Positions 16,318 through 31,453 of a stretch of 33,845 nt of DNA are shown here, one piece after another. Source of the stretch: an archaeon (GTDB lineage Archaea; Nanobdellota; Nanobdellia; Woesearchaeales; GW2011-AR9); the NCBI GenBank assembly GCA_023259115.1, contig JAHFQW010000010.1, positions 10,180 to 44,024 on the forward strand. Direction: 5' to 3'. Positions within the stretch are counted from its first letter, which is position 1. Each line of letters starts with the position of its first letter. A model generated the notes under the pieces. The model saw nothing but the letters and a program-made list of their open reading frames with translations, had not been told where the DNA came from and did not search any database. The translations under genes and the position numbers were made by a program.

Positions 16318-16432
16318 GCCCCAGTAGCTTAACGGTCGAGCACCTGACTTGTACTTATTTACACACGTTAAGAATGACGTAATAGCATAAGAAGATATCA
16401 GGAGGTTCCGCGTTCAAATCGCGGCTGGGGCT
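16318..16432 (+). tRNA. tRNA-Thr (anticodon TGT) with one intron
   Basis: The acceptor stem GCCCCAG/CTGGGGC pairs perfectly. D stem GCTT/GAGC, anticodon stem CCTGA/TCAGG, T arm CCGCG-TTCAAAT-CGCGG, discriminator T. The mature anticodon loop is CTTGTAA with TGT at 16350-16352, reading ACA (and ACG). A 43-nt intron separates positions 37 and 38. The mature length is 72 nt; CCA is not encoded. A poly-T run follows at 16436-16442, and a protein frame starts 13 nt after the tRNA end. Confidence 0.93.
16354..16396 (+). other. tRNA-Thr intron at canonical position 37/38
   Basis: 43 nt. The outer helix is CCTGA/TCAGG. The central helix CTTG/GAAG has a G-G mismatch at its inner end. The 3-nt bulges are TAC and ATA, with an inner helix TTAT/ATAA. 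Cutting each bulge after its second base restores the 7-nt loop. This is a slightly relaxed bulge-helix-bulge motif. Confidence 0.85.
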
Positions 16433-23696: not shown

Positions 23697-23800
23697 GCCC
23701 TCGTAGTCTAGCCTGGATATAACAACATGGCAGAAATATAAGGCACATAGGACACGAGCTTGCGGAGCTTGGAGCCGGAGTTCGAATCTCCGCGAGGGCG
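23697..23800 (+). tRNA. tRNA-Arg (anticodon GCG) with an intron in the D loop
   Basis: Acceptor GCCCTCG/CGAGGGC, anticodon arm CGAGC-TTGCGGA-GCTTG with GCG at 23762-23764, T arm CGGAG-TTCGAAT-CTCCG, discriminator G. The D stem GTCT/GGAC closes only if 30 nt are removed. The mature D loop is then AGCCTGGATA, with A20, an arginine identity base. Mature length 74 nt; CCA not encoded. A T8 run and a protein gene follow, with the ATG 13 nt after the tRNA. Confidence 0.93.
23717..23746 (+). other. tRNA-Arg intron at non-canonical D-loop position 19/20
   Basis: 30 nt. Textbook bulge-helix-bulge: outer helix CTA/TAG (23708-23710/23748-23750), central helix GCCT/AGGC (23711-23714/23741-23744), bulges GGA and ACA, inner helix TATA/TATA. 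Cutting both bulges after the second base yields the normal D loop. The exact junction is ambiguous by up to three bases because ATA occurs at both ends, but the product is the same. Confidence 0.9.
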
Positions 23801-28731: not shown

Positions 28732-28808
28732 ACAACACCAATTTTTAACAAAATTTTATAAAGAGTTCGCAAAATCTTCTTATCCAAGCCAACGTCGCAT
28801 AACTCGGT

Positions 28809-28831
28809 ACTTTCCCAAAAGAAAGCGAGAT
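28809..28831 (+). other. tRNA-Ser intron 1, D loop (position 20/21)
   Basis: 23 nt. Perfect bulge-helix-bulge: central helix CTCG/CGAG (28803-28806/28826-28829), bulges GTA and ATA, inner helix CTTTC/GAAAG. Cutting after the second bulge base restores the D loop AACTCGGTA. Confidence 0.9.
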
Positions 28832-28848
28832 ATTGCGCAGGTCTTGAA

Positions 28849-28879
28849 CCCTCTTTAGAAAAACTAAAGAACCAGAGCA
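28849..28879 (+). other. tRNA-Ser intron 2, anticodon loop (position 37/38)
   Basis: 31 nt. Outer helix CAGGT/ACCTG. The central helix CTTG/AGAG is relaxed (one G-T wobble, one mismatch). Bulges AAC and CAA, then an inner hairpin TCTTTAG/CTAAAGA with an A5 loop. It is excised to give the seven-base loop CTTGAAA. Confidence 0.85.
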
Positions 28880-28909
28880 AACCTGTCCCTTGTGGATTCC
28901 CAGTTCAAA

Positions 28910-28953
28910 TATTGACGCCCGAACCAACAATATCTCGAACGTCAATGAGAATG
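28910..28953 (+). other. tRNA-Ser intron 3, T loop (position 59/60)
   Basis: 44 nt. Outer helix is the T stem itself (CCCAG/CTGGG). Central helix TTC/GAA, bulges AAT and TGT, and a perfect inner 7-bp helix ATTGACG/CGTCAAT. The product T loop is TTCAAAT. The junction may be shifted by one base with the same product. Confidence 0.85.
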
Positions 28954-28968
28954 TCTGGGCGTTGGCGC

Positions 28969-28975
28969 TTTTTTT
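28969..28975 (+). terminator. T7 terminator of tRNA-Ser
   Basis: Seven T one base after the tRNA-Ser end. The next gene is on the opposite strand, so this is a plain transcription end. Confidence 0.6.
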
Positions 28976-29566: not shown

Positions 29567-31453
29567 CTACTTAATCCGAATCACATCCAAATTTTTTGGT
29601 GCCACAGTCTCAATTCTAAACTGCTGATGAATTGATGCCGCCAAATCTAAACAGCGGCTGCTCTCCCCATGCACAATAATCACTTTACGTGGCTGTGGAT
29701 TACATCTCTTAATGAAATTCATCAACTGTCGTCGATCAGAATGATTCGTAATCTCCACACGATGTACATCCATATTTATCTTCATCACATACGATTTTCC
29801 ATCATTCATCATAATCTCTTTTTCTCCTTCACGAATGCGATGTCCCAGAGAACCAGGTGGTTGATAACAGCTAAAAATCAATGAATGCTTACTCCCCTCT
29901 GCCAAATTCTTCAAATACTCAACCGACGGCCCGCCTTGCAGCATACCTGACGTTGCAAGAATTAAACACGGCCCTTCTTCTTGGATAATTTGCTGTCGCT
30001 CTTTATTTGACCCAACCTGCTTAAAAATATCAGACAAAAACGGATTTCCCTCTGTTCCATAAAACGATTGCCGAACATTCCGATTCAAAAATTCCGGATA
30101 CGCCGTATGAATCGCTGTAATATCCCAAAGCATCCCATCCACATACACCGGCGCTTTAGGAATTCTTCCCTCGCGCGATAACCGCTCCACAATCATCATC
30201 ACTTCCTGCGCTCGTCCAGAACCAAGCACAGGCATCAATACTTTCCCACCGCGCTCAAACGTATCTTTAATCACCTTCACCATGTAATCATCCGCTTCTG
30301 TTTCCGCCATGATGTTTCCCTTCCCACCATACGTCGATTCAATCATCAGCGTTTCTAATCGTGCAAATTGCGTATTTCCTGCCTCCAGCAAATTCGTTCG
30401 CGCATACTTCAAATCACCCGTATACGCCAAATTATGTAAGCCATTTCCTATATTAAAATGTACAATCGCACTACCAATCACGTGCCCTGCATTATACAGT
30501 GTCAAACGAACATCAGGAGTGATATCCGTCACTTCCTCATAATCTAAACAAATCGTATGCAGCACCATCTTACGAATCTCTTCTGTTGTAAAAATCGGAT
30601 CTTTCCCTTCATTACGTTGAATTTTAATCATATCCAACTGCAAGAGCGCCATAACGTCTCGTGTCGGCGCCGTACAATAAATTGGCCCATTATAACCAAA
30701 CTTAAACAGATACGGAATCAAGCCAGAATGATCTAAATGTGAATGCGTCACAACCACTGCATCAATCTCGCTAATATTGAATTCTGGCGCATCTAAATAA
30801 GGATAGCTCTCTGTTCCTTCTTCACTCGGATCAATCCCGCAATCAATTAAAATACGTGATTCTGGCGTCTGTAAAAGAAAACATGTCCGCCCAACCTGTC
30901 TTGCCGCGCCTAAAAATGAAACTCTAACCCACTCATGTTTTTTCTCTCGCAACCAACCATCATATACTCGATGTCCCGTCTTATCCAAAAACTTCTTACG
31001 ATAATCCGCATTCTCATATAATACAGAGCGGATACTCTCAATTAATTTTGATCTAATCGGTGGCACTCTCTTCACAACTGTCACCCAATTCGTTTTCGCA
31101 GAAATCTCCCGCAAAATCTCCCCCTGTTTACCAATCGCAACACCCGGCTTCTCCGCATGAATAATCAACTGTGACCGCGGGGGATCGAAAATAAACTGCG
31201 TAACCCCTGCTTCTTTGGGAATCATTTTCTCAATTTCTTTCTCAGCCTTCACCGGATCCATACAAATCGACGGATCAGGGCGCAGCTCCATTCGCTTCTT
31301 AAACTGCTGTACCGCTTCGCGAATCGTTCCTTTATTATCTAAGAAATATTCTTTATCTTTTGTATAGAGCACTATATTTGCTCCCTCAAACGCAATATCT
31401 GATATTTTATCTGCGGGTAATACTTTTAATACTTCCTTTTGTATATCTGCCAT
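29567..31453 (-). CDS. fttA: aCPSF1/FttA transcription termination RNase
   Basis: 628 residues, normal for archaeal aCPSF1. It is the CPSF73-like beta-CASP nuclease that ends archaeal transcription by cutting nascent RNA at U-rich sites. Residues about 1-145: two KH-like domains (VAIGKQGEILREI is the GxxG-type loop). Residues about 178 onward: metallo-beta-lactamase fold with THSHLDHSG (about 238-246), NAGHVIGSA and YTGDLKY. The beta-CASP insert follows (ESTYGG, PVLGSGRAQEVM, ILATSGMLQGGPS). End: NHSDRRQL and IVHGE, zinc ligands. Start ATG has a TATTATAG element about 26 nt upstream, preceded by a duplicated CACGTG unit and a long hairpin-rich region. Confidence 0.96.
   Translation of the reverse strand: MADIQKEVLKVLPADKISDIAFEGANIVLYTKDKEYFLDNKGTIREAVQQFKKRMELRPDPSICMDPVKAEKEIEKMIPKEAGVTQFIFDPPRSQLIIHAEKPGVAIGKQGEILREISAKTNWVTVVKRVPPIRSKLIESIRSVLYENADYRKKFLDKTGHRVYDGWLREKKHEWVRVSFLGAARQVGRTCFLLQTPESRILIDCGIDPSEEGTESYPYLDAPEFNISEIDAVVVTHSHLDHSGLIPYLFKFGYNGPIYCTAPTRDVMALLQLDMIKIQRNEGKDPIFTTEEIRKMVLHTICLDYEEVTDITPDVRLTLYNAGHVIGSAIVHFNIGNGLHNLAYTGDLKYARTNLLEAGNTQFARLETLMIESTYGGKGNIMAETEADDYMVKVIKDTFERGGKVLMPVLGSGRAQEVMMIVERLSREGRIPKAPVYVDGMLWDITAIHTAYPEFLNRNVRQSFYGTEGNPFLSDIFKQVGSNKERQQIIQEEGPCLILATSGMLQGGPSVEYLKNLAEGSKHSLIFSCYQPPGSLGHRIREGEKEIMMNDGKSYVMKINMDVHRVEITNHSDRRQLMNFIKRCNPQPRKVIIVHGESSRCLDLAASIHQQFRIETVAPKNLDVIRIK

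Follow-up and report, generated by a model that had tools for sequence, protein, structure and literature searches.

Among the closest described counterparts of the locus presented here are tRNA genes of the Thermoproteales. In this order, according to Sugahara 2008 and Fujishima 2010 as summarized in PMC4033280 and PMC4090602, a single tRNA can have up to three introns, position 59/60 is among the insertion sites, and introns undergo transposition. The mechanism by which archaeal tRNA introns move has been called unknown (PMC4090602). In 2024, introns were reported in 92-95% of the tRNA genes of the Asgard archaea Atabeyarchaeia and Freyarchaeia, many of them non-canonical and multiple, and the available portion of that report describes no repeated intron family (PMC11291895). 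In Cyanidioschyzon merolae, introns likewise interrupt all three arms (D, anticodon, and T) of one gene, that for tRNA-Ile(UAU); the tRNA itself is unrelated, and the host, a red alga, splices with eukaryotic enzymes (PMC9602550).

Here, we describe a tRNA-Ser(UGA) gene (28788..28967, + strand) in the window, that is, the whole 33,845-nt stretch of DNA analyzed, which corresponds to contig 22 of a 1.57-Mb genome that is 96% complete. As in the Thermoproteales, there are up to three introns per tRNA, 59/60 is one of the sites, similar introns occur in different tRNAs, and their gain is patchy; as in the Asgard genomes, more than 90% of the tRNA genes have introns, and many of these are non-canonical and multiple. 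Unlike what is described for the Thermoproteales, the host is a Woesearchaeota-type DPANN archaeon, and a single structured intron family, which we call R1, is found nearly always at one T-loop site, where it pairs with invariant bases. An earlier note on this DNA had already suspected a DPANN context, and the relatives of the neighboring aCPSF1/FttA beta-CASP ribonuclease bear it out. This gene (29567..31453, - strand; Pfam KH_TffA and Beta-Casp; 51 relatives) served as the syntenic anchor for the tRNA, which many relatives carry next to it, and the nearest named relatives of its protein belong to Candidatus Woesearchaeota, with the locus L019, from a genome of the same genus (G001), at 86%. 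The same note regarded multi-intron tRNAs as mainly a trait of the Thermoproteales, which is too narrow given the Asgard genomes and the intron-rich genome described below. Thus, 59/60 introns and intron transposition were already known, and what is new is the lineage and the R1 variant. A search of the open literature, with subscription papers and preprints outside its scope, found no report of such introns in Woesearchaeota, and massive tRNA intron gain is here extended to archaea of this type.

Structure and boundaries of the tRNA-Ser(UGA) gene

A perfect 7-bp acceptor stem (GCCAACG/CGTTGGC), which the earlier note had read correctly, encloses 180 nt, with a G at 28967. Exon 1 (28788..28808) holds the acceptor 5′ strand and the first part of the D arm, has 22 nt identical to the congener L019, and is followed by a 23-nt D-loop intron, ACTTTCCCAAAAGAAAGCGAGAT (28809..28831). 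Exon 2 (28832..28848), with an 18-nt exact match to L019, supplies the end of the D arm, the 5′ strand of the anticodon stem, the UGA anticodon, and position 37, after which comes a 31-nt intron at the canonical 37/38 site (28849..28879). The anticodon stem 3′ strand, a long variable arm, the T-stem 5′ strand, and TTCAAA make up exon 3 (28880..28909), delimited by orthologues and ARAGORN, and the 44-nt T-loop intron at 59/60 (28910..28953) scores 59.1 bits with the R1 covariance model. Exon 4 (28954..28967), placed from the sequence and ARAGORN, contributes U60, the T-stem and acceptor 3′ strands, and the discriminator G73, which is included in the 82 nt of the mature product. All of these features lie on the + strand, as do the flanking elements, namely a putative TATA box, TTTATAAA (28755..28762), whose center precedes the mature 5′ end by about 29 nt, and a T-run immediately 3′ of the gene (28969..28975) that is probably a terminator. 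In several orthologues (L020, L034, L066), TTTATAAA is also present some 30-40 nt upstream of the tRNA.

The three introns, as placed by the earlier note, proved correct to the base, and their boundaries rest on orthologues that lack them as well as on folding, since orthologues without the D or the T intron show the predicted junctions. When the 8 splice combinations were submitted to ARAGORN, only the triple-spliced 82-mer was called as tRNA-Ser(tga), and one partially spliced form was called as a spurious intron-containing tRNA-Ala. A blind search that tried 26,399 ways of removing the two 5′ introns, after the T intron had been taken out, ranked the 23 plus 31 nt solution first. In L019, the orthologue beside aCPSF1/FttA in the congener, the D intron is absent, and the sequence there is CTCGGTATTGCG, which is the predicted joined sequence, and four other orthologous tRNAs (L023, L024, L028, L035) have different insertions at the same D-loop site. 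The T intron is missing in five orthologues (L023, L024, L032, L033, L046), which read GTTCAAATC or GTTCGAATC. Every orthologue inspected has a 37/38 intron within CTTGAA^...^AACC, and these introns are unrelated in sequence and range from 18 to 135 nt. We take the comparative data to be the decisive evidence for the boundaries, and their pattern is that expected of introns rather than of a decayed gene.

All three junctions lie in a bulge-helix-bulge (BHB) or relaxed form of this motif, as had been proposed, and removal of the introns restores a canonical tRNA by ARAGORN, by the blind search, and by the junctions of the intronless orthologues. The D intron forms a strict BHB (score 4+4), with a 4-bp helix CUCG/CGAG (28803-28806 and 28826-28829), 3-nt bulges GU^A and AU^A, and a 5-bp inner helix CUUUC/GAAAG. 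At the T intron, the helix UUC/GAA (28904-28906 and 28949-28951) has 3 of 4 pairs and is accompanied by an inner helix; the bulges are AA^U and UG^U. Orthologues that have G57, or that have other T introns, often regain the fourth pair, which joins position 57 to the preceding intron base (as G-U, G-C, or A-U). The anticodon intron motif is relaxed, with three of the four helix pairs. An unguided minimum-energy fold of the precursor shows both the D-intron BHB and a BHB-like motif at the T intron. We also observed that CGAGATATTG (28826-28835), at the 3′ splice site of the D intron, is perfectly complementary over 10 bp to CAATATCTCG in the T intron (around 28926-28935), a post-hoc observation equaled in 21 of 20,000 shuffles; such pairing might be an alternative to the D splice motif that competes with it, or might influence the order of splicing.

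Other classes of interrupted gene fit poorly. No catalytic core of a group I intron was found by covariance model, and 44 nt would be too short for one; neither the window nor the local region matched an intron model of Rfam. A split or permuted tRNA is rejected by the four exons, which lie in order within 180 nt with the acceptor strands at the two ends.

A further possibility is that the locus is a decayed tRNA pseudogene with random insertions and no splicing. ARAGORN and Rfam give nothing on the unspliced gene, as the earlier note had expected of standard annotation, and this would agree with such a relic. Nevertheless, the exons are undamaged and conserved, the acceptor and T stems are perfect, and the ends of the insertions coincide exactly with the joins of intronless orthologues. 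Furthermore, the check for another tRNA-Ser(TGA) that the note had called for found no second copy in this 96% complete genome, in which the gene thus appears to be the only tRNA-Ser(UGA), and most of the other essential tRNAs of the genome are built likewise. Given that no second gene was found, that the exons are conserved, and that the gene lies between an archaeal TATA box and a terminal T-run, we consider that a pseudogene is very improbable.

tRNA introns and splicing enzymes of the genome

The tRNA-Ser(UGA) gene is not exceptional in its genome. Rfam reports only 7 tRNAs above its cut-off, whereas a pattern for T-loop introns matched 20 times, compared with 4 times when it was reversed. 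Of the 20 matches, 19 are tRNA genes that have a complete T stem and the intron at 59/60, one gene being cut by a contig end. With the addition of genes that have an intact T loop, 33 tRNA genes were recognized, around 30 of which have at least one intron, and only those for the Cys, Trp, and His tRNAs appear to be intron-free. The total, estimated by eye, is about 55 introns in these 33 genes, which is comparable to the 71 introns in 46 tRNA genes of Pyrobaculum calidifontis (PMC8450103). In the other multi-intron genes, brute-force splicing allowed too many solutions to pin down the D and anticodon introns, so these were counted by eye. A regular-expression survey of T-loop introns in 279 genomes was too noisy for counting outside intron-rich genomes. 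Given the 7 tRNAs of Rfam against at least 33 recognized genes, we suggest that tRNA annotation and tRNA-based completeness counts are too low in genomes of this kind.

Other tRNA genes of this genome deserve mention. For instance, the window contains a sequence that does not reach the Rfam cut-off but is probably a tRNA-Arg(GCG) whose D loop holds an intron (23697-23800), and a tRNA-Thr(TGT) with a long 37/38 intron, which is the sole tRNA in the window reported by Rfam (16318-16432). On contig 24 (L160, around 20,000), a tRNA-Ser(GGA), when compared with the intact gene in L125, seems to be interrupted within the anticodon stem, at 37/38, and within the T loop.

Since the genome encodes both EndA and RtcB, the standard archaeal splicing pathway is available. 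The earlier note had predicted an endonuclease of broad specificity, and the enzyme found does not match the classes known for this. The genome has one PF01974 match and one PF02778 match at E values up to 10, both in the same 262-codon frame, so that its sole EndA is of the alpha type, with one N-terminal and one catalytic domain. It has neither the Crenarchaea-type loop nor any insertion where Aeropyrum pernix has its extra loop, and a second (beta) subunit was not found at E values up to 10. Thus, neither the beta subunit of an (alpha-beta)2 enzyme nor the three-unit chain with specific loop of an epsilon2 enzyme was detected, and only these two classes have been reported to cut relaxed motifs efficiently (PMC6379350). 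Its closest solved relative is NEQ205, the catalytic EndA subunit of Nanoarchaeum equitans (PDB 3iey, E 5e-42), an organism that does have a beta subunit, NEQ261. There is, therefore, a mismatch between the relaxed anticodon motif and the T helix with 3 of 4 pairs, on the one hand, and an EndA outside the classes known to process relaxed motifs, on the other. It is possible that a subunit is missing from the 96% complete genome or has diverged; either this is the case or the published rule on relaxed motifs fails here. The case thus questions the notion that such motifs need a two-subunit or three-unit EndA. The EndA, encoded on contig 38 (L018), also has an acidic extension at its N terminus, after which comes a stretch of lysines (DDSEDKKKKKK).

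The R1 intron family and its probable spread

Introns matching the 44-nt T intron occur in further tRNAs, both of this genome and of others, a property of the locus that the earlier note had overlooked. The R1 covariance model contains 13 covarying pairs, with 94% of the cells paired, against about 21-38% when the partners are slid. It finds 3 copies in this genome (in the Ser-UGA, Val-UAC, and Arg-UCG genes) and hits in 22 of 288 genomes of the order; in a sample of the phylum, 21 of 371 genomes have it, a single one of them outside the order. We examined 48 copies from 26 genomes, all of which lie in tRNA genes, for 15 amino acids by anticodons read by eye. Of these copies, 46 are at 59/60, and the other two are at 37/38 (Ile-GAU in L218 and Thr-GGU in L139). 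In the genome under study, the tRNA-Ile(GAT) gene on contig 13 (L006/L114, 10643-10757) has a weakly R1-like 37/38 intron (E 0.35), a likeness that is clearer in L218, from another genome.

These introns could be old and vertically inherited, with many losses, their likeness being kept by splicing constraint. Several positions are invariant, sister species share some copies in their orthologous Ser(UGA) genes (the window and L019), and loss together with a strong constraint on the sequence might also account for the likeness between distant genomes. Against this, the presence of R1 is patchy (the 22 of 288 genomes above), and similarity is not predicted by tRNA identity. Among the 43 copies compared, which are alike in tRNAs of different identity for 15 amino acids, mean similarity is 0.78 between different tRNAs of one genome and 0.73 between the same isoacceptors across genomes. 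By label shuffles, likeness within a genome has p ~0.001 and likeness within an isoacceptor p ~0.71, values that treat copies as exchangeable, and the same-genome signal leans on few genomes; the contrast is weaker at the amino-acid level (0.754 vs 0.736). Near-identical copies are also found in different tRNAs of one genome. Finally, the genome under study has other T-loop introns with 59/60 junctions whose sequences are unrelated, which means that the R1 sequence is not a requirement for splicing. R1 copies thus seem to resemble each other by genome and not by tRNA identity, and we consider purely vertical descent unlikely.

The breadth of R1 hosts can be understood from the splice motif. 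The R1 splice helix would pair only with U54-U55-C56 and, loosely, with position 57, bases of the T loop that nearly all tRNAs share, and R1 should therefore be removable from almost any host tRNA, while anticodon introns need an isoacceptor-specific loop. The precursor would be cut by EndA at the BHB-like motifs and sealed by RtcB to give the 82-nt tRNA, and R1 would have spread between tRNA genes and between species. On the evidence of sequence comparison, we are confident, if not certain, that the gene is a functional and apparently sole tRNA-Ser(UGA) spliced in this way and that its T intron is a copy of a dispersed family that moves between tRNA genes and species, although transcription, splicing, mobility, and the copying route are all inferred.

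As for how R1 is copied, one alternative is a route at the DNA level, in which homologous recombination or gene conversion carries it from one T arm to another and RNA plays no part. Short homology is common to the T arms of all tRNAs, and recombination and mobile-element integration have been proposed for Caldiarchaeum (PMC3293823). Two loci, L125 (G185, contig 74) and L104 (G016, contig 3), resemble DNA-level rearrangements: behind an intact tRNA-Ser, both have a duplicate of the T arm and acceptor 3′ end, and the duplicate in L125 carries R1. These duplications may be a trace of the entry of introns or elements into tRNA genes. On the other side, an identical 46-nt intron is found in a Gln-type and a Ser gene of G202, whose exons keep differences 2-3 nt from each junction, so conversion tracts would have to end almost at the splice sites. 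Such exact junctions and unconverted flanks favor a step acting at the splice sites, and we regard spread as DNA as quite possible, if not the reading to be expected.

It has also to be considered whether R1 could be a DNA hairpin that an IS200/IS605-like transposase mobilizes in trans, with TTCAAA as the target. The hairpin is compact, the target sequence is fixed, and there is no target duplication. Nevertheless, the examined copies, 48 of 48, lie in tRNA genes, the two in anticodon loops have other flanks, and R1 was found neither in phage and plasmid records nor, as a full copy, in the scanned viral contigs, all of which makes a transposase highly unlikely. A 20-base match to R1 in one viral contig lies in a region without a tRNA and looks like chance, and none of 73 viral loci matching a short R1 prefix scored better than E 0.7.

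A copying step acting on tRNAs fits the sequence data best. For example, the excised intron might be ligated into another cleaved tRNA, and the product might then recombine into the genome. In a bolder version of this route, R1 would be a protein-free mobile RNA of DPANN archaea, whose excised 44-nt introns are ligated into tRNA T loops by EndA and RtcB, copied to DNA, and spread across species, a proposal that we put forward as tentative and somewhat doubtful. With one site, one recognizable element, and recent identical copies, R1 offers a clean system for testing how archaeal tRNA introns move. Two further copies, L141 (in G249) and L142 (in G273), have extra sequence in the apical loop of R1, possibly introns nested within the intron.
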